DNA from: Streptomyces sp. NBC_01275
Lineage (GTDB): Bacteria; Actinomycetota; Actinomycetes; Streptomycetales; Streptomycetaceae
Assembly: GCF_026340655.1 (NCBI RefSeq)
Contig: NZ_JAPEOZ010000001.1
Span: 1-64,000 of the forward strand
DNA length: 64,000 bases
Direction of reading: 5' to 3'
Each line of letters opens with the position of its first letter. Within the stretch, counting starts at the first letter, position 1. This document shows positions 3,380 to 49,470 of this stretch, in pieces. A program made the translations under genes and the position numbers. The notes beneath the pieces were generated by a model that did no database searches, was not told the origin of the DNA, and saw only the letters and a program-made list of their open reading frames with translations.

Positions 3380-6300
3380 GTGTCGTCATCACAGCAGCAA
3401 CAGCCGACCCCTTCTTCGGCGCCGGCCGCATCCCAAGCGTCCTCTGCGTCCCCGGCGTCCCCGGCGTCCCCAGGGTCTCCTGCGTCCCCGGCGTCCCCTG
3501 CGCAGTTGGACAAGTTCCGTGAGCATCTGCGGTGGGCCACCGCCGAGTTGGGCGAGGCGCGCCGACGGGTGACCGAGCTGGAGGAGGCCGACCGCGAGCC
3601 GATCGCGATCGTCGGCATGGCCTGCCGCTATCCGGGCGGGGTCGCCTCCCCCGAGGATCTGTGGCGGCTGGTCACCGAGGGCCGGGACGCCGTCGGGCCG
3701 CCGCCCGCCGAACGCGGCTGGCCCGCCGAGGAGTTCCACGATCCCAGCGGACAGCGGCCGGGCACGTCGTACGTCTGGGAGGGCGGGTTCCTGGAGGGCG
3801 CCGCCGACTTCGACCCGGCGTTCTTCGACATCAGCCCGCGCGAGGCCCTCGCCATGGACCCGCAGCAGCGGCTGCTCCTGGAGACCTCCTGGGAGGCGAT
3901 CGAACGCGCGGGCGTCGACCCGACGACGTTGCGCGGCACCCGGGTGGGCGTGTTCGCGGGGCTGATGTACCACGACCACGCCACCCGGCTGGGCGAGGTG
4001 GACGAGGCCGTCGCGGGCTTCCTGGGCAGCGGCAACGCGGGCAGCGTGGCCTCCGGCCGGATCTCGTACGTCCTGGGCCTCGAGGGCCCGGCGGTCACCG
4101 TCGACACGGCCTGCTCGTCCTCACTGGTCGCCCTGCACCTGGCGGCGCAGGCGGTACGGCGCGGGGAGTGCGCGATGGCCCTGGCGGGCGGGGTCACCGT
4201 GATGGCCACCCCGTCCACCCTGGTCGACTTCAGCAGGCTCGGCGGGCTCGCGCGCGACGGTCGCATCAAGTCCTTCGCGGCGTCGGCGGACGGCACGGCC
4301 TGGGGCGAGGGCGCGGGCATGCTGCTGGTCGAACGGCTCTCCGACGCCCGTCGGCTGGGCCATCCGGTGCTCGCCGTGCTGCGCGGCTCCGCCGTCAACC
4401 AGGACGGCGCCACCAGCAGCCTGTCCGCCCCGAACGGGCCGTCCCAGCAGCGGGTGGTCCGGGCCGCGCTGACCGCGGCCCGGCTCTCCCCCGACCTGGT
4501 GGACGCGGTGGAGGCGCACGGGACGGGTACGACCCTGGGCGACCCGATCGAGGCCCAAGCCCTCCTGGCGACCTACGGCCAGGACCGCCCCGCCGAACGA
4601 CCCCTGTGGCTCGGCTCGTTGAAGTCCAACATCGGCCACACCCAGGCCGCCGCAGGCGTCGGCGGCGTCATCAAGACCGTCATGGCACTACGCCACGCCA
4701 CCCTGCCCAAAACCCTCCACGTCGACGAACCCACCCCCCACGTCGACTGGGCGGCGGGCGCCGTCTCCCTCCTCACCGAACAGCGCGCGTGGCCGGAGAC
4801 CGGCCGACCCCGCCGGGCCGCCGTCTCCTCCTTCGGCGTGAGCGGCACCAACGCCCACGTCATCCTGGAACAGGCGCCGGAGAACACGCCCCCCGAGGCG
4901 ACGCCCGACCGTCCGGCAGTCGCCTGGCCCGTCTCCGCCCGCTCCGCCGAGGCACTGCGCGCCCAGGCCGAGCAGCTACGGGACACGGTCGCCGACCACC
5001 CCGAGTGGACACCGGCGGAGGTGGGCCATGGTCTGGCGACCGGCCGGACCTACTTCGAGCACCGAGCCGTTGTCGTCGGCACCGACCGGGAGCAACTGCT
5101 GGCTGGGCTGGGTGCGTTGGCGGAGGGCGTCGAGGCTCCGGGTGTCGTCACCGGGCAGGGAGACTCCGGGCGGCCGGTGTTCGTCTTCCCCGGCCAGGGC
5201 TCGCAGTGGACCGGGATGGCCGTCGAACTCCTCGACACCTCCGCGGTGTTCGCCGAGTCGATCGCCGATTGCGAGGCGGCATTGGCCCCGCATGTGGAGT
5301 GGTCGCTGACCGACGTACTGCGCGGCGGCGAGCCGCTCACTCGTGTCGATGTCGTGCAGCCCGCGCTGTTCGCGCTCATGGTGTCGCTCGCCGCCGTCTG
5401 GCGCTCCCTCGGAGTCGAGCCCGCAGCCGTCGTAGGCCACTCCCAGGGCGAGATCGCCGCGGCCGTCGTCGCCGGAGCGCTCTCGCTGGAGGACGGCGCG
5501 AAGATCGCCGCCCTCCGCAGCCGCGCCATCCTCAAACTCGCCGGACACGGCGGCATGATCTCCCTACCTCTGACCAGCCAGGACACCGCCGGACTGCTCG
5601 AACAGCGGACCGACCGCATCTCCATCGCCGCACTCAACGGCCCCCACACCACCATCGTCGCCGGAGACGCCACCGCCCTCGACGAGTTGCTCGCCCACTG
5701 CGAGGCCGACGGCCTCCGCGCCCGCCGCATCGACGTCGACTACGCCTCCCACACCCACCACGTCGAAGCGATCCAGGACGACCTCGCCGAGGCGCTCGCG
5801 GGCATCGTGCCCCGCACCAGCACCACCCCCTTCTACTCAACCGTCACCGGCGCCCCGATCGACACCACCGAACTCACCGGCGGCTACTGGTACACCAACC
5901 TCCGCCAGACCGTCCGCTTCACCGAAGCCACCCGAGCCGCGCTCGCCGACGGCCACACCGCCTTCCTCGAATGCAGCCCCCACCCCGTCCTCACCCCCGC
6001 CATCGGCGACACCACCGAGACCGGCGCCGTCACCGGCACTCTTCGCCGTGACGAGGGCGGCTGGCAGCGCCTCCTGGCCTCCGCCGCGCACCTCCACGCA
6101 CACGGCACCCCCATCACCTGGCCCACCACCTGGACCGCCGCCCCCATCGACCTCCCCACCTACCCCTTCCAGCGCGACCGCTACTGGCTCGACGCGACCT
6201 CGTCGGCCAGGATCACGGACCCCGCCGGGCACCCCCTCCTCGACGCCTCGATCCCCCTCGCCGGCAGCGACGGCCTGATCCTCACCGGCCGCCTCTCCAC

Positions 6301-10102: not shown

Positions 10103-16036
<5,934 letters not shown>

Positions 16037-16077: not shown

Positions 16078-23400
<7,323 letters not shown>

Positions 23401-43326: not shown

Positions 43327-44313
43327 TCAGGGGCCCTCAGTCGTGAGCGGCCTGGACGGATCCTGGGACCACTCCTCCAGCGAACCGTCGTACAGGGCGA
43401 TGTCCTGACGGCCCAGCAGGGTGAGGGCGAGCGCGGCGCCCGCCGCGGAGATGCCGCCGCCGCAGTAGAGGATCACCGGCGAGTCGTCGTCCTCGATGAC
43501 CGTGCCGACGCGTTCGGCGAGTTCGACGGCGGGCAGGAACCGGCCCGTGCCGTCGAGGAGGCCGCGCCCCGGCAGGCTGAGGCTGCCGGGGATGTGGCCG
43601 CGTCGGCGGTAGCGGGTGGGGGCGGAGCCGTCGAAGCCGCCGGGCGGCAGCGCGCACACCAGCGTGCCGGGCCGCTCGCCGCGGCTGACGGCCTCCACCG
43701 CCTCGACGCCGACCCACATGCCGGGACGGGGTACGGGGATGAGGGGCCCGGCGTCCAGAACGAGAGCGGCACCGTCCGACTCCCGGACGCCCGTCTCGCC
43801 GCCGCTCGTCTCTTCGCGGCTCGTCTCTTCGCGGCCCGTCTCTTCGCCAAGGGCGATCGGGTGTCCGCCCGCCTCCCACGCCTGCCATCCCCCGTCCAGG
43901 ACCGCCACCGGTACCGAGATCGAGCGCAGCATCCACCACAGCCGGGCCGCCCAGATGCCACCGCCGCTGTCGTAGGCGACGACCTCCGAGCCGGCGCGGA
44001 CGCCGAGCCGCCCGAGGGCTGCGGCCAGCGCCTCCGGCGCCGGGACCGCGAAGTGGTACGGCGCTCCCGGGTCCGACAGTTCCCCCGTGAGGTCCGCGTG
44101 GCGCGAGCCGGGGATGTGACGCTCGGCCCACTCGGCGCGGCCGCTGTCGGACCGGTGGTCGCCGTCGTGACGGGGTGACGGCAGCAGCGCGGTGGCGTCG
44201 AGGACGACCAGTCGGGGGTCGCCGAGGCGGGCGGCGAGCCACACGTCGTCCACCAGCGGTCCGGGGAGCAGCGGTCCGGGGAACAGCCGTCCGGGGAACA
44301 GAGGGTCGGTCAT
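43327..44313 (-). CDS. Two-domain rhodanese (thiosulfate/mercaptopyruvate sulfurtransferase)
   Basis: 328 residues from ATG 44313; a longer reading to 44448 is rejected because it runs toward the riboswitch promoter. The N-terminal inactive rhodanese domain has LVVLDAT, HIPGSRHADL and VLDGGWQAWEAGG. The C-terminal active domain has HIPGSLSLPGRG and the catalytic loop ILYCGGGISAAG, whose Cys takes the sulfane sulfur. The inter-domain linker is an in-frame repeat of GREETSREET type. It converges with the hydroxyacyl-CoA dehydrogenase gene, 13 bases apart. It lies beside cysteine- and thiamine-linked genes, consistent with sulfur transfer, though no operon link exists. Confidence 0.9.
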   Translation of the reverse strand: MTDPLFPGRLFPGPLLPGPLVDDVWLAARLGDPRLVVLDATALLPSPRHDGDHRSDSGRAEWAERHIPGSRHADLTGELSDPGAPYHFAVPAPEALAAALGRLGVRAGSEVVAYDSGGGIWAARLWWMLRSISVPVAVLDGGWQAWEAGGHPIALGEETGREETSREETSGGETGVRESDGAALVLDAGPLIPVPRPGMWVGVEAVEAVSRGERPGTLVCALPPGGFDGSAPTRYRRRGHIPGSLSLPGRGLLDGTGRFLPAVELAERVGTVIEDDDSPVILYCGGGISAAGAALALTLLGRQDIALYDGSLEEWSQDPSRPLTTEGP

Positions 44314-44408
44314 GCCGGGGATGCTAACCCGGAGCCGGTCCGGGCCGATGCACCTGAGCTGGGATTTCTCAACCACTGGGCATGATCGTCCCACATAGTG
44401 GATTCGGC

Positions 44409-44439
44409 TTGCGCAGCATCGGTTGCCCGGGGTTATGGT
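44409..44439 (+). promoter_or_regulatory. Probable promoter of the TPP-riboswitch transcript
   Basis: TTGCGC (44409-44414) and TATGGT (44434-44439) are separated by 19 bases. The predicted start, about 44446, is immediately before the P1 helix of the riboswitch. Spacing is slightly long, so moderate support only. Confidence 0.4.
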
Positions 44440-44448
44440 TTCGGCCAT

Positions 44449-44568
44449 CTACGCGGGAGCCCCTACCCGGTTGGGCTGAGAGGGCGTCTGGGAGCGGTGT
44501 CGGCACCAGTCGACGCCGGTCCCCATGGGAACGCCGACCGCATCACTTGAGCCACAGTGCCCGCGTAG
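44449..44568 (+). ncRNA. TPP riboswitch (THI element)
   Basis: The P1 helix pairs CTACGCGGG (44449-44457) with CCCGCGTAG (44560-44568). P2 pairs GCCC with GGGC, followed by the conserved CTGAGA. The 3' half has ATCACTTGAGCC...GTGCCCGCGTAGG, the pyrophosphate-sensor side of the TPP aptamer. The last bases of P1 overlap the Shine-Dalgarno AGGAG (44567-44571) of the mini-ORF at 44578. Ligand-stabilised P1 should therefore hide that ribosome site, giving translational repression when thiamine pyrophosphate is plentiful. The P3 arm is long and variable, as often in actinobacteria. Confidence 0.92.
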
Positions 44569-44577
44569 GAGTACCGC

Positions 44578-44640
44578 ATGTCTTCAGCAGTCGAGCAGCA
44601 GTGTCCCCCGGCGTCCGCCGCGGCCTGCTCCTGTTGTTGA
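44578..44640 (+). CDS. Cys-rich 20-residue leader ORF behind the TPP riboswitch
   Basis: MSSAVEQQCPPASAAACSCC: 20 codons, five cysteines, four of them in the last quarter (ending CSCC). The ATG is 6 bases behind AGGAG, the site gated by riboswitch P1. The next gene starts 105 bases later. Polycysteine short ORFs act as cysteine-responsive attenuators in mycobacteria (established). Here the same logic would add a cysteine input to a thiamine riboswitch. It has no homolog I can name, and it could also be just the coupling ORF of the operon. Too short for standard gene finders. Confidence 0.6.
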   Translation: MSSAVEQQCPPASAAACSCC

Positions 44641-44745
44641 CCCGCCCGGTCTCCCTCTCCTCCTTCTGCTCGCCCTTCCTCTCCTCACCAGGCAGCCCTC
44701 TCACGGGCCCGAACGCCTGAGTGCCGTCCACGGAGCCGTCTGCCC

Positions 44746-45678
44746 ATGTCGCACGTCCGAGTCATGCTCGACTACTTCCACCCCTGGCCGAATTCCGCCG
44801 GTTTGTACGTTGCCAGGGAGCGCGGCTGGTACCGCGAAGCGGGCCTGGACGTGGAACTCACCGTCCAGGATCCGGGACGCGGCGACACTCTGGAGTACCT
44901 GGCTCTGGGGGAGGTGGACTTCGGTCTCTTCCCGCCCAACCGGTTGCTCGCCCGCCGTACGGCTCCCGGCCGGCCGCTGCTCGCCGTGGCCGCCGTCAAC
45001 CACCGGGCCCTGGAGGCGATCCAGACCACCCGTTCCACCGGCGTCGCCCGCCCCCGCGATCTGGCCGGACGCCGCCTCGCCTTCAACCCGACCCCGCGCG
45101 GCCGCGCGATGGTCCGGCACCTCGTCGCGGCCGACGGCGGCGATCCGGACGCCGTGATCACCGTCGACGCGGGCTATCGGGAGCTGACCGTCGACGACAT
45201 AGCCGCCGGTGAGGCGGACGCGACCTTCGGCGCCTACTGGTCCTGGGACGCCCTGCGCGGCGACCTGCCCGAAGAGGAGCGCCTGACCTGGCCGGTCGAC
45301 GAGATCGGCGCTCCCCGCTACCACAGCTACCTCCTCGGCACGAGCGAGAGGCTCGCCGACGACCGTCCCGACCTGGTGCGCGCCTTCCTGGCCGCCACCG
45401 CCCGCGGCTACGCCTGCGCGGCGGCCGACCAGATCGGCGCCCGCGCCGTGCTGGAGCGGGTGATCCCCTATTTCTCGCGCCCCCTGATCACCCGTTCCCT
45501 CGCCCTGGTCGCCCCGACCTGGACCGACGCCGACGGGAACTGGGGCGTCATCGACGAGACCCGCATGGGCCCCTACGCCGACTGGCTCGCGCGGCACGGA
45601 GCGGTCCGGCACGCCCACGACTGGCGGTCGTCGTACACGAACGACCTGCTGGCCACCGCCCCGGCGGTCGCCGAATGA
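44746..45678 (+). CDS. NMT1/THI5-like (ThiY-family) protein without signal peptide
   Basis: 310 residues. VRVMLDYFHPWPNSAGLYVARERGWYREAGLDVELTV and ALGEVDFGLFPPNRLL give the periplasmic-binding-protein-like fold of the NMT1/THI5 superfamily, which binds pyrimidine precursors of thiamine. Unlike the next binding protein it starts directly with the fold: no hydrophobic signal and no lipobox, and no better start exists upstream. It is either cytoplasmic or exported by other means. The yeast THI5 CCCFC iron motif is absent, so HMP-phosphate synthase activity is not supported. Controlled by the TPP riboswitch upstream. Its stop overlaps the next leader ORF (ATGA). Confidence 0.82.
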   Translation: MSHVRVMLDYFHPWPNSAGLYVARERGWYREAGLDVELTVQDPGRGDTLEYLALGEVDFGLFPPNRLLARRTAPGRPLLAVAAVNHRALEAIQTTRSTGVARPRDLAGRRLAFNPTPRGRAMVRHLVAADGGDPDAVITVDAGYRELTVDDIAAGEADATFGAYWSWDALRGDLPEEERLTWPVDEIGAPRYHSYLLGTSERLADDRPDLVRAFLAATARGYACAAADQIGARAVLERVIPYFSRPLITRSLALVAPTWTDADGNWGVIDETRMGPYADWLARHGAVRHAHDWRSSYTNDLLATAPAVAE

Positions 45679-45807: not shown

Positions 45808-46857
45808 ATGACGTCCCGCATGAGATCCCGTACGACCGCCCTGCTCTCCGTGGCCACCGCCGCCACCCTCGCCACGACGGGCTGCGCCGCGCAGGACTCC
45901 ACGTCGGCCGCCGCGAAGAACGGCGCCACCCAGGTCACCCTCGCCCTGGACTGGACGCCCAACACCAACCACACCGGCATCTACGTCGCCCAGCAGAAGG
46001 GCTGGTTCAAGGACGCCGGAATCGACCTGAAGATCCTGCCGTACGGCTCGACCGCGCCGGAGACGCTGATCGCCGGCCACCAGGCGGACTTCGGGATCTC
46101 CTACCAGGAGGGCGTCACCACCGCGCGCGCCGCGGGCCAGGACATCACCTCCGTGTACGCCGTCACGCAGAAGACGAACGTCACGGTCTCCGTGCGCGCC
46201 GACCGCGACGACATCGCCTCCCCCAAGGACCTGGACGGCAAGACGTACGCGGGGTTCGGCGCCCCCTACGAGAAGGCACTGCTCCAGAAGGTCGTCCAGG
46301 AGGCCGGCGGCAAGGGCACGTTCAAGCAGATCACGCTCAACACCTCGGCGTACGCGGCCCTTTACGCGGGCAAGGCGGACTTCGCGATGCCCATGCCCAC
46401 CTGGGAGGGTCTGGAGGCGAAGCTCACGGGCAAGCCCCTCAAGGACTTCCAGCTCGCCGACTACGGCGTCCCGGCCATCTACTCGACCCTCATCGCCTCC
46501 TCGGGGCAGTACCTGAAGCAGAACCCGGAGGTCGCCAGGAAGTTCCTGGCCGTGGTCGACAAGGGGTACGAGTACGCCGCGGACCACCCCGACCAGGCCG
46601 CCGACCTTCTCATCGCGGCCAACAAGAGCACGCTCACCAACACCGAACTGGTGAAGGAGAGCGAGGCGTTGCTCGCCGAGGAGTACTACCGCGCCGCCGA
46701 CGGCACGATCGGCGGCCAGACCGCGAAGCGCTGGCAGGACTTCGCCGACTTCGAGTTCACGGCCGGGCTGCTGGTGGACAAGAACGGCAAGAAGCTCACC
46801 AAGGCGCCGGACGCTTCGACGTTCTTCACCGACGCCTACCTCCCGGAAGCCAAGTGA
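45808..46857 (+). CDS. ABC-transporter substrate-binding lipoprotein, ThiY-like
   Basis: 349 residues, ATG behind GAGGAAA. Twin-basic lipoprotein signal with lipobox ATTGC, so Cys at about residue 26 is lipidated. ALDWTPNTNHTGIYVAQQKGWFKDAGIDL and ADFGISYQEG are characteristic of ThiY/NMT1 proteins that bind hydroxymethylpyrimidine or its formylamino precursor. Overlaps the permease gene by 4 bases (GTGA). Together with the next two genes it forms a complete importer. A sulfonate-type ligand (SsuA relatives share the fold) is the main alternative, given the leader peptide upstream. Confidence 0.88.
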   Translation: MTSRMRSRTTALLSVATAATLATTGCAAQDSTSAAAKNGATQVTLALDWTPNTNHTGIYVAQQKGWFKDAGIDLKILPYGSTAPETLIAGHQADFGISYQEGVTTARAAGQDITSVYAVTQKTNVTVSVRADRDDIASPKDLDGKTYAGFGAPYEKALLQKVVQEAGGKGTFKQITLNTSAYAALYAGKADFAMPMPTWEGLEAKLTGKPLKDFQLADYGVPAIYSTLIASSGQYLKQNPEVARKFLAVVDKGYEYAADHPDQAADLLIAANKSTLTNTELVKESEALLAEEYYRAADGTIGGQTAKRWQDFADFEFTAGLLVDKNGKKLTKAPDASTFFTDAYLPEAK

Positions 46858-47627
46858 GAGCGGTCCTGCGCGCGGTCTGGCCGCCGCTGCTCGTCCTCGC
46901 GGTGCTCGTGACCGGCTGGCAGGTGTACGTGGCCGCCGCCGCAGTCGATCCGACGGTGCTGCCCAGCCCCGGCCGCGTCCTGTCACAGGGCTGGGCCAAC
47001 CGTGGCGACCTGTGGGACCAGACGCTGCCCACCCTCCAGGAGACCCTGTTCGGCTTCGCGCTGTCCTTCGCCGCCGCCTGGCTGGTGGCCGTGGTGCTGG
47101 ACTTCTCGGCGGCGGCCCGCCGGGGCCTGTATCCGCTGCTCGTGGCCTCGCAGACCATCCCGATCGTGGCGGTCGCCCCCCTGCTGATCATCTGGTTCGG
47201 CTTCGGTCTGCTGCCGAAGATGCTGGTGGTCACCCTCACGACGTTCTTCCCGCTCGCGGCGAACCTGGCGGCGGGCTTCGCGTCCACCGACCGCGACGCG
47301 ATGCGGCTGCTGCGCTCGCTGGGCACGAGCCGGATGCGCGCCTTCCGGCTGGTCCGGGTGCCGAGCGCGCTGCCCCACTTCTTCACCGGACTGCGGGTGA
47401 GCATCACGTACGCCGTGGTGGGCGCGGTCTTCGCGGAGTACGCGGGCGCGGAGAACGGCCTCGGCATCTATATGCAGGCACAGAAGAGCGCGTTCCGCAC
47501 GGACCTGGTGTTCGCGGCGGTCGCGGTGACCGCCCTGTTGAGCATCGCCCTGTTCGGGCTGGTCTGTCTGCTGCAACGGATCGTCCTGCCGTGGGAGCGG
47601 GCGCTGGCGAAGGAGAGCCGTTCATGA
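46854..47627 (+). CDS. ABC-transporter permease, ThiX-like
   Basis: 257 residues, GTG start overlapping the previous stop. About six membrane segments, for example LLVLAVLVTGWQVYVAAAA, ALSFAAAWLVAVVL, IPIVAVAPLLIIWFGFG and LLSIALFGLVCLL. A BPD-type EAA-like loop (LRSLGTSRMRAFRLVRVPSALPHFFTGLR) docks on the ATPase. Family of SsuC/TauC/ThiX permeases. Coupled on both sides by 4-base overlaps. Confidence 0.9.
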   Translation: MRAVLRAVWPPLLVLAVLVTGWQVYVAAAAVDPTVLPSPGRVLSQGWANRGDLWDQTLPTLQETLFGFALSFAAAWLVAVVLDFSAAARRGLYPLLVASQTIPIVAVAPLLIIWFGFGLLPKMLVVTLTTFFPLAANLAAGFASTDRDAMRLLRSLGTSRMRAFRLVRVPSALPHFFTGLRVSITYAVVGAVFAEYAGAENGLGIYMQAQKSAFRTDLVFAAVAVTALLSIALFGLVCLLQRIVLPWERALAKESRS

Positions 47628-48397
47628 GTCTCGAAGTACGGGGAGCGGGCAAGGCGTTCGGGTCGCTCGAAGTGCTGCGCGACCTCGATCTCACCGTGGA
47701 GCCGGGTGAGTTCGCGGCCGTCATCGGTCCGAGCGGCAGCGGCAAGAGCACCCTGTTCAACCTGATCTCCGCTCTGGACGAGCCCACTTCGGGCGAGATC
47801 CTGGTCGAGGGCGCCCCCGCGTCCGTGGCCTCGGGGAAGGTCGCCTACATGCCCCAGAAGGATCTGCTGTTCCCCTGGCGCACGGTGCTCGACAACACGG
47901 CGCTGGGCCTTCAGGCGCAGGGGGTGCGGAAGAAGGAGGCGCGGCGCAGGGCCGGCGAGCTCTTCGAGGCGTTCGGTCTCGACGGCTTCCAGTCCTCGTA
48001 TCCCTTCCAGCTCAGCGGCGGGATGCGGCAGCGTGCGGCGCTGCTGCGCACGGTCGTGCTGGAGCGGCCCGTGCTGCTGCTCGACGAGCCGTTCGGCGCG
48101 TTGGACTCGCTCACCCGCACCGAGATGCAGCTGTGGCTGGCCGACATGTGGCAGCGCTACCGCTGGACCGTCGTGCTGGTCACGCACGACATCCGCGAGG
48201 CCGTCCTGCTCGCCGACACGGTGCACGTCCTCTCGCCGCGCCCGGCGACGGTCGTGGAGCGCATCGAGGTGCCGCGGTCCGGCGCACGCGGTCTCGACGC
48301 CCTGACCGAGCCGGAGTTCGCGGCGACCGAGCGGCGGCTGCTGGACGCCCTCGGCGGCCGGGCGAGCCGGGTGGAGGACGAGGTGACGGCCGGATGA
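47624..48397 (+). CDS. ABC-transporter ATPase, ThiZ-like
   Basis: 257 residues. Walker A GPSGSGKST, Q-loop MPQKDLLFPW, signature LSGGMRQR, Walker B VLLLDEPFGALD and switch His in VTHDIREA, all intact. Energises the ThiY/ThiX-like importer. Start ATG 47624 overlaps the permease stop, and its own stop overlaps the kinase gene. Confidence 0.93.
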   Translation: MSLEVRGAGKAFGSLEVLRDLDLTVEPGEFAAVIGPSGSGKSTLFNLISALDEPTSGEILVEGAPASVASGKVAYMPQKDLLFPWRTVLDNTALGLQAQGVRKKEARRRAGELFEAFGLDGFQSSYPFQLSGGMRQRAALLRTVVLERPVLLLDEPFGALDSLTRTEMQLWLADMWQRYRWTVVLVTHDIREAVLLADTVHVLSPRPATVVERIEVPRSGARGLDALTEPEFAATERRLLDALGGRASRVEDEVTAG

Positions 48398-49470
48398 GCG
48401 GGCTCCTGGCGCACGGCATGGGAACGGAGCCGGTGGCCCCCGACTGGCCGCCGCTCACCGAGGCGGAGGTCGAGGCCGTCGTCGGTCCCGCGCGCCTGCT
48501 GTGGCGCAGCCCGCGCCCGCTGTCGGCGGCCGCCCTGGTCGAGCGGGACGGGCGCCGGCTCTTCGTGAAGCGACACCACGGCGACGTACGCTCCCTGGAA
48601 GGGCTGGCCGAGGAGCACGCCTTCCTGCGGTATCTGCGCGACCGGGGCGCGCCCGTCGTGGAGGTGCTGGGGGTTCGGGCGCGCGGGGAGTGGGTGTACG
48701 AGGTCCATACGGCCGGGGTGGGGACGGATCTCTACCGGGACGCTCTGTCGTGGTCGCCGTTCGCGTCCGTGGCGCATGCCCGGGCCGCGGGCGCCGCGCT
48801 GGCCCGACTCCATCTGGCGGCCGAGGGGTTCGAGGCCCCGCGTCGGCGCCCGCAGCCTCTCGTCTCGTCGTTCGGCATCTTCGCGGCGGTCGATCCCGAG
48901 GCCGCGCTGGAGACGTATGCGGCCGAACGGCCGTCGGTGACGGCGGCGTTGGCGGGCCGTCCCTGGCGGGAGGACCTGCGCGCGGTTCATCTTCCCTTCC
49001 ACCAGCGCCTGTTGCCGTCCCTCGGCCGTCTGGCGCCGCTGTGGACGCACAACGACTGGCACGCCTCGAACCTGCTGTGGGACACGGCGGCCGGCACGGT
49101 CTCGACCGTCCTCGACTTCGGCCTCAGCGACCGCACGACCGCCGTCCACGACCTCGCCACCGCCATCGAGCGCAACACCGTCCAGTGGCTCGACCCGTCC
49201 CGCCCCGTCCGCCCGGACGACGTGGACGCGCTGCTCGACGGGTACACCGCGGTCCGCCCGCTCAGCGCCGCCGAGTCGGCCGCCCTGCCCGAGCTGCTGC
49301 CGCTCGTGCACGCGGAGTTCGCCCTGTCCGAGCTGGGCTACTTCCACGGCGTCACGGGATCGCGGGCCAACGCCGATCTGGCGTACCGGTATCTGGTGGA
49401 CCACACCCGGTGGTTCACGACCGACGACGGGCTTCGGCTCCTGGATCGCGTACGGCTGCGGACAGGTTGA
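48394..49470 (+). CDS. APH/choline-kinase-fold phosphotransferase (salvage kinase candidate)
   Basis: 358 residues. N-lobe Lys in RRLFVKRHHG, catalytic loop THNDWHASNLLWD, metal-binding VLDFGLSD: the aminoglycoside-phosphotransferase / homoserine-kinase / thiamine-kinase fold. ATG overlaps the ATPase stop, so it is the last gene of the TPP-riboswitch operon. An antibiotic-resistance role is therefore unlikely. It probably phosphorylates the imported pyrimidine or thiamine, trapping it in the cell, as thiamine kinases of this fold do. Substrate not provable from sequence. Confidence 0.8.
   Translation: MSGLLAHGMGTEPVAPDWPPLTEAEVEAVVGPARLLWRSPRPLSAAALVERDGRRLFVKRHHGDVRSLEGLAEEHAFLRYLRDRGAPVVEVLGVRARGEWVYEVHTAGVGTDLYRDALSWSPFASVAHARAAGAALARLHLAAEGFEAPRRRPQPLVSSFGIFAAVDPEAALETYAAERPSVTAALAGRPWREDLRAVHLPFHQRLLPSLGRLAPLWTHNDWHASNLLWDTAAGTVSTVLDFGLSDRTTAVHDLATAIERNTVQWLDPSRPVRPDDVDALLDGYTAVRPLSAAESAALPELLPLVHAEFALSELGYFHGVTGSRANADLAYRYLVDHTRWFTTDDGLRLLDRVRLRTG

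Follow-up and report, generated by a model that had tools for sequence, protein, structure and literature searches.

What does an RNA resembling a TPP riboswitch control when the SD sequence that it covers is not that of the transporter gene downstream, and what might it sense? The question is raised by the leader of an ABC importer operon in a 64,000-nt stretch of Streptomyces sp. NBC_01275 DNA (the whole stretch analysed, hereafter the window). According to the initial annotation, helix P1 ends inside the AGGAG of a 20-codon ORF closing in CSCC, with the first gene 105 bases on, and both the window sequence and the ORF translation bear this out (Table 1). The two P1 strands are perfectly complementary, the final two bases of the 3′ strand fall within the SD sequence of the mini-ORF and 6 bases separate this AGGAG from the start codon. 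The P1 strands enclose a TPP-type P3 with CUGAGA, then a P3a hairpin, GACCGC and, at the place of P4/P5, a short segment. At the sequence level, comparison of related loci shows that the RNA is conserved, that the leader ORF is kept with its Cys codons in frame, that the RNA is inherited together with gene 1 and that P4/P5 has been lost.

Table 1. Leader elements and neighbouring genes, with positions in the window
Feature	Position	Strand	Basis or remark
Divergent rhodanese-type sulfurtransferase (start chosen by eye)	43327..44313	-	Family matches
Promoter-like TTGCGC-19 nt-TATGGT	44409..44439	+	Sequence; putative function; predicted transcript start ~44446, just 5′ of the aptamer
P1 5′ strand CUACGCGGG	44449..44457	+	Identical in 29/29 leaders (alignment)
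Alternative TPP-type P2	GCGG 44453-44456 with CCGC 44538-44541	+	Possible competing pairing
TPP-type P3 (AGCCC/GGGCU) and J3/2 CUGAGA, pyrimidine-sensing half	44458..44481	+	RF00059 alignment
P3a: GGCGU/ACGCC, GGGA/UCCC and CAUGGG bulge kept, tip hairpin variable	44483..44535	+	Leader alignment
Segment in place of TPP P4/P5, AUCACUUGAGCCACAGUG in the window	44542..44559	+	Sequence and length differ among relatives
P1 3′ strand CCCGCGUAG (44560-44568) merging into SD AGGAG (44567-44571)	44560..44571	+	CCCGCGTAGGAG identical in 29/29
Polycysteine leader ORF MSSAVEQQCPPASAAACSCC* (ATG 44578 to TGA 44640)	44578..44640	+	Counterpart in 29/29 leaders
Helix within mini-ORF: CAGCAG (44585-44590)/CUGUUG (44631-44636), GAG/CUC extension	44585..44636	+	Leader alignment
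C-rich, G-poor spacer, candidate Rho-loading (rut) region	44641..44730	+	Base composition
Gene 1, NMT1/THI5-like substrate-binding protein, starting straight at the binding domain	44746..45678	+	Profile and structure-sequence matches
Gene 2, NMT1/THI5-like, lipoprotein-type N-terminus (by eye)	45808..46857	+	Family matches
ABC permease	46854..47627	+	Family matches
ABC ATPase (start approximate)	47630..48397	+	Family matches
APH-family small-molecule kinase (start approximate)	48397..49470	+	Family match

Conservation of the element among relatives

Related loci were selected by the aptamer alone, using blastn with the leader, a covariance model and a DNA pattern. Blastn returned matches in 27 of 199 genus genomes, six of which (the genome of the window included) carry the element; the other 21 matches (L009–L029) were short, lacked the aptamer and were discarded as chance by eye. 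A covariance model built from the six elements and run with Infernal's stricter filters, which lose weak matches, matched 9/392 genus genomes, all at no less than 129 bits, and 11/297 genomes of a family sample (the window's own, seven at 114 bits or more and three with weak canonical matches only). Matches in a class sample came from 34/345 genomes, and only the genome of the window matched strongly; 28 of the 29 loci from the others (24–42 bits) read as canonical TPP riboswitches, one (L056) did not, and five matches were without a locus. Finally, a DNA pattern scan of an 84,980-species collection gave 22 loci: 20 from Streptomyces, one from Streptacidiphilus jeojiense and one from 'Actinobacteria bacterium OV320'. 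The total is 37 strong loci representing 29 distinct leaders from Streptomyces, Streptacidiphilus and one further genus.

The aptamer core is far better conserved than its surroundings, with a mean pairwise identity of 96.8% (minimum 92.0%) against 65.5% at fourfold sites of gene 1 (28/29 sequences). Gene 1 itself was found at E ≤ 1e-40 in 5 of 150 genus genomes, all five with the RNA. Upstream, the promoter-like sequence recurs as TTGCRC-19-TATNNT in 26 of the 28 leaders whose upstream sequence is long enough to judge (the exceptions are L044 and L086; L091 was left out), and a generic sigma-70 scan called no promoter at the leader. The genome of the window contains the core motif GCTCCTGTTGTTG a single time, so a second leader of exactly this kind was not seen there, and no plasmid-borne copies were found. 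A search for gene-1 orthologues with a canonical TPP riboswitch, as a possible ancestor, returned only the genome of the window from the class sample (1/246) and, from the phylum sample, the same genome plus 13 others at only 28–36% identity (14/296). Some loci lie within ~100 kb of a contig or chromosome end (the window, G011:C1:4675 and G306:C1:8842948) and others well inside (G068 at 10.27 of 12.1 Mb and G236 at 1.58 Mb).

Relation to the TPP riboswitch

The name TPP riboswitch, given initially, fits the 5′ pyrimidine-sensing half and fails for the rest, and we rejected the element as an ordinary member of that family. The Rfam TPP model RF00059 scores the leader at 12.9 bits (E 8.5 in 501 nt), missing the family cut-off of 54.3 bits. 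When 18 loci were scanned jointly with this model, none of the 14 variants was reported at E ≤ 10, compared with all four canonical controls (50.9–61.1 bits, three above the cut-off). Two of the canonical elements are from elsewhere in the genome of the window, one over the cut-off (61.1 bits) and one under it (50.9 bits), and no TPP match reaches the gathering score anywhere in the 64-kb window. A search of positions 44300–44800 for a T-box or other Rfam leader at E ≤ 10 returned only the 12.9-bit TPP match and a lncRNA model, TTC28-AS1_3 (16.8 bits, cut-off 55); a T-box-like UGGG bulge was therefore rejected as a T-box.

Side by side with actinobacterial TPP riboswitches of RF00059, the variant shares the sequences of the P2 strands (GCGG/CCGC), P3, the CUGAGA of J3/2, P3a (GGCG/CGCC) with GACCGC, and a 3′ GCGUAGG that overlaps an SD sequence. 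The sequence of the pyrimidine-sensing half (P2, P3 and J3/2) is nearly invariant except in the P3 loop. In contrast, the GAACCU...GGGUAAU of P4/P5, the pyrophosphate-sensing part, is missing from the window leader, and neither GAACCT nor a GGGUAAU-like L5 is present in any of the 29 variant leaders, compared with GAACCT..AGGGA (GAACCU...AGGGA) in 34 of 35 canonical loci inspected. The variant P1 pairs with the counterpart of the P4 3′ strand of TPP riboswitches, and the SD sequence belongs to a leader ORF rather than to an enzyme gene. The best reading of these alignments is that the aptamer derives from a TPP riboswitch, having kept the pyrimidine half and swapped the pyrophosphate helix P4/P5 for a variable segment. 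Given the missing domain and the failure of the Rfam model on all 14 variants, 'thiamine sensor' is only a candidate label.

The replacing segment comes in more than one form. CACUUGAG is found in 8/29 leaders (the window type) and GUGCCCGCGUAGG in 7/29, both resembling the lost P4/P5 half when aligned by eye; we take the aligned positions to be TPP residues G60, A61, G72, C77 and G78 (E. coli thiM structure numbering). A CUUG/UAGG pairing is possible in window-type leaders, and among the other 21 only L007 has a CCUG able to pair with UAGG. Placed on a gene-1 tree (28 rows), the two leader types are separated by a single branch (support 81/91; recovered in 78% of 200 bootstrap trees). In L084 the segment is 60 nt long compared with 17–21 nt elsewhere, as though its loop had received an insertion.

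Folding was modelled thermodynamically only. Folded alone, the 136 nt from 44445 to 44580 form P1 and P3 in both the MFE and the centroid structure (z −2.0; 7 of 200 shuffles fold equally well). In aptamer-only models, P1 has a mean pair probability of at least 0.5 in 22/29 leaders, the seven failing ones forming one close group, and P3 reaches this level in 13/29 (0.82 in the window). The TPP-type P2 has a probability of ~0 in all 29; imposing it costs a median of 10.9 kcal/mol (4.2 in the window) and raises the mean modelled openness of the mini-ORF SD from 0.25 to 0.49. With the whole leader folded to gene 1, the outer pair of P1 is kept at 0.5 or above in 4/29 leaders, the window not among them, and P2 appears nowhere. 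Since the P1 and P2 strands are invariant, covariation proves neither.

The mini-ORF SD nonetheless lies inside the aptamer fold, as in riboswitch-controlled uORFs, with CCCGCGUAGGAG in 29/29 leaders. The proposal that the RNA gates the mini-ORF rather than the transporter gene is upheld to the extent that the element covers the SD of the conserved Cys mini-ORF and not that of the transporter. Because one GCGG, in the P1 5′ strand, has two possible partners, CCCGCG (long P1) and the CCGC of GACCGC (TPP-type P2), ligand binding would alter access to this SD; on the aptamer-only models a ligand-bound TPP-like fold might be the open state, opposite to canonical TPP control, but either sign is possible. 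A further ORF, from an AUG at 44525 in P3a, was dismissed as coding: no SD was seen, and the hairpins behind it differ in length by amounts not divisible by three.

The polycysteine mini-ORF and the importer operon

The mini-ORF, whose conservation behind homologous riboswitches the initial annotation had made one test of its idea, is present at 37/37 strong loci and in 29/29 distinct leaders, and the idea survives on this point. Every leader has AGGAG followed 5–6 nt on by a start codon (7 ATG, 22 GTG) and an ORF of 20–36 codons with Ser-Cys near its end, continuing as Ser-Cys-Cys in 27/29 and as Ser-Cys-Arg in L040 (core CRC) and L044 (one core Cys). The second or third core Cys is replaced by Arg in L007, L040, L044, L081 and L089. 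This layout, a short ORF with its own SD and start and with repeated codons for a single amino acid close to its end, is that of a Cys leader-peptide attenuator. The TCC-TGT core is in frame with the start in 29/29, at 51, 54 or 57 nt, and the adjoining non-coding hairpins take any length.

Cysteine accounts for 14.3% of mini-ORF codons compared with 0.59% (87 in 14,752 codons) in 19 window ORFs of at least 300 codons that passed a base-composition filter. By frame, the whole mini-ORFs hold 108/786, 46/757 and 10/757 Cys codons, and past the core 22/151 (frame 0), 4/130 and 0/130; as these sequences are related, the counts are not independent. Within three codons after Ser all 74 Cys codons are TGT, although window ORFs prefer TGC (77 of 87; 10 TGT), so part of the conservation acts at the RNA level; elsewhere in the mini-ORFs 18 are TGT and 16 TGC. 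Between start and core no amino-acid constraint was detected (non/syn 3.25 observed compared with 2.54 expected), and third codon positions vary least. Leader peptides usually lack such constraint, but its absence does not prove translation. The arms of a helix, CAGCAGnnGAG/CUCCUGUUG, fall on the conserved AVE and SCC codons; its columns each pair in 26–28 of 28 leaders and are mostly invariant, which offers no real covariation test; RNA and codon constraints may both act on the mini-ORF.

The spacer that follows is unusually rich in C (0.51) and poor in G (0.19), a C-over-G excess equalled by 0.46% of same-length stretches of the window; for the 29 leaders, with the last 15 nt of the spacer set aside, it is matched by at most 2.1% (median 0.44%). 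No intrinsic terminator was found in the leader. Ribosomes parked on the Cys codons do not free the gene-1 SD in models of 28 leaders (0.13 without, 0.11 with), so unmasking by a stalled ribosome is unsupported, and an anti-SD role of CUCC for gene 1 found no support either (probability ≤0.32 in whole-leader folds and ≤0.05 from the mini-ORF onwards). With a C-rich spacer, no terminator and no modelled SD unmasking, Rho-dependent attenuation is our better guess for how the mini-ORF might be coupled to the operon. The same was proposed, and called weak by its authors, for mycobacterial cys leaders with polyY spacers (Seliverstov 2005, PMC1262725).

The operon itself is probably an HMP/FAMP-type (thiamine-precursor) ABC importer, its substrate judged from family resemblance. 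The nearest solved sequences to genes 1 and 2 are 4nmy and the FAMP-binding 3ix1; the best NCBIfam matches are sulfonate-type (SsuA family), under their cut-offs, and a sulfur compound may be the substrate instead. In the window and relatives, gene 1 starts at once with the binding domain (MPHIRVMLDYFHPWPN...), with no signal peptide visible by eye, beside a lipoprotein-type paralogue, and its product is possibly a cytosolic binding protein. In S. pseudovenezuelae (L088) an ATPase ORF follows gene 1, and no gene 2 or permease ORF is among the listed ORFs of at least 180 aa.

Proposed mechanism, alternatives and precedents

On balance we lean slightly towards reading the leader as a two-stage attenuator, in which a TPP-riboswitch derivative gates a Cys leader ORF that is in turn linked to the importer operon by a C-rich and perhaps Rho-sensitive spacer. 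In the scheme that we infer for the ligand, sign, cysteine response, role of Rho and substrate, the long P1 of the TPP-descended RNA would hold the mini-ORF SD, and binding of a thiamine-pathway pyrimidine (HMP, FAMP, thiamine or a related compound) would alter the balance of P1 and P2 and with it SD access. Translating ribosomes would then reach the Cys-codon run near the mini-ORF stop, where charged tRNA-Cys would decide between stalling and release, and thereby Rho's access to the spacer ahead of gene 1; the operon so controlled would be an ABC importer of HMP/FAMP type. A single RNA leader would on this view respond to a thiamine-type signal as well as to the supply of cysteine, and the cysteine sensing and AND/OR gate raised initially would form part of it. 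Beyond this, it is conceivable, if some way short of probable, that the element represents a new riboswitch class, evolved from the TPP riboswitch through loss of the pyrophosphate-sensing domain and reading the thiamine pyrimidine (HMP, FAMP or unphosphorylated thiamine) with a polycysteine leader ORF as output, a two-input device weighing pyrimidine import against cysteine for the thiazole half.

Because the other explanations are not fully exclusive, the probabilities we give them need not sum to one. We think it unlikely that the RNA is still a TPP riboswitch that binds TPP via a remodelled P4/P5 and simply switches the leader ORF off: the CACUUGAG and GUGCCCGCGUAGG motifs that resemble TPP residues and the possible CUUG/UAGG pairing would fit, but the GGGUAAU-like L5 is missing from every leader, L007 alone among the other 21 has CCUG and the Rfam TPP model reports none of the 14 variants tested at E ≤ 10. 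We similarly doubt that only the cysteine leader regulates, the TPP-like RNA being a relic with a fixed SD-occluding fold that binds no metabolite. Such a relic would accord with the loss of P4/P5, the strongly disfavoured TPP-type fold in our models and the prediction, in the available part of one study, of Cys leader ORFs with polyY spacers but without riboswitches in other Actinobacteria (PMC1262725); yet J3/2, the P3 strands and the P3a base, none of them needed to occlude the SD, vary hardly more than P1 does in the three genera.

Little credence can be given to the notion that the mini-ORF is kept for its RNA helix and not for the reading of cysteines. The AVE and SCC codons do sit on the helix arms and the core Cys codons are uniformly TGT, but SD, start codon and frame are kept in 29/29, extra Cys codons fall mostly in frame 0 and pairing in the helix would be improved by TGC at the first core codon, so that the helix does not account for TGT. 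Chance or an annotation artefact, for which one could cite the lack of an Rfam call and the many short GC-rich ORFs nearby, is refuted by conservation in 29/29 against a 65.5% silent-site background, and we regard it as practically negligible.

Canestrari 2020, cited in PMC13236596, reportedly describes actinobacterial Cys-run leader ORFs of the same class as those of Seliverstov 2005 and Shell 2015. The sections of the latter two available to us (PMC1262725; PMC4633059) describe a short ORF with a Cys run near the stop, a pyrimidine-rich spacer and no intrinsic terminator, as here. Those leaders precede cys, cbs or cysA2-type genes, with no riboswitch over them mentioned in these sections, whereas in the window a TPP-like RNA covers the SD and the operon downstream probably encodes an importer of thiamine precursors. 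Riboswitches acting through uORFs are known from Mycobacterium tuberculosis: judging from source excerpts, the pe20 Mbox likewise occludes the SD of a conserved uORF with Rho-dependent termination, but has a Mg2+ aptamer and no amino-acid codon run described (PMC12810186), and the ppe2 B12 riboswitch controls a uORF whose translation the downstream gene needs, but with a B12 aptamer, stop/start overlap and termination-reinitiation, Rho not being favoured (PMC11260477), compared with a gap of 54–128 nt from mini-ORF to gene 1 across our leaders. Tandem TPP/HMP-PP riboswitches also give two-input control of thiamine genes, using two aptamers and intrinsic terminators, with no leader peptide mentioned in the extract available (PMC6478431).

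The initial remark that no TPP riboswitch with such a leader ORF was known fits the bacterial literature searched, in which we found no case, and needs qualifying elsewhere, as fungal TPP elements act through uORFs (PMC10043782) and other bacterial riboswitches do so too (PMC11260477, PMC12810186), again judging from partial texts. According to a review citing unpublished work of its own laboratory, thiamin or TMP is preferred by some RNAs classed as TPP riboswitches (PMC9481103). Neither a P4/P5-less TPP aptamer nor a TPP-like RNA joined to a Cys leader ORF was found in a literature that covered subscription papers thinly, which makes this weak evidence; the separate parts (Cys leader ORFs, and M. 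tuberculosis Mbox and B12 riboswitches acting via uORFs) have precedents, and for the combination we found none.

If the two-stage attenuator is correct, a riboswitch aptamer has shed half of its ligand-binding domain with the remainder frozen, and the window-type group, with its possible relics, would offer a direct test bed for riboswitch ligand change. It would also unite two controls known separately, a metabolite aptamer and a Cys leader peptide, acting on the pyrimidine and sulfur inputs to a single vitamin. The arrangement of a riboswitch-gated leader peptide can be searched for elsewhere. Among 34 actinobacterial canonical TPP elements (the two of the window's genome and 32 weak covariance-model matches), none has a Cys-rich short ORF within 45 nt. 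Three loci, L059, L061 and L074, have a short ORF of similar sequence (MAV.RPAPI.S...) 3–9 nt behind a canonical TPP riboswitch; it lacks a Cys run and may be a further leader ORF under TPP riboswitch control. Elsewhere in the window, on the minus strand, Rfam matched ASpks four times (4550–4624, 11165–11239, 17179–17253 and 20278–20352), which probably reflect antisense conservation across repeated PKS modules and not four separate sRNAs.
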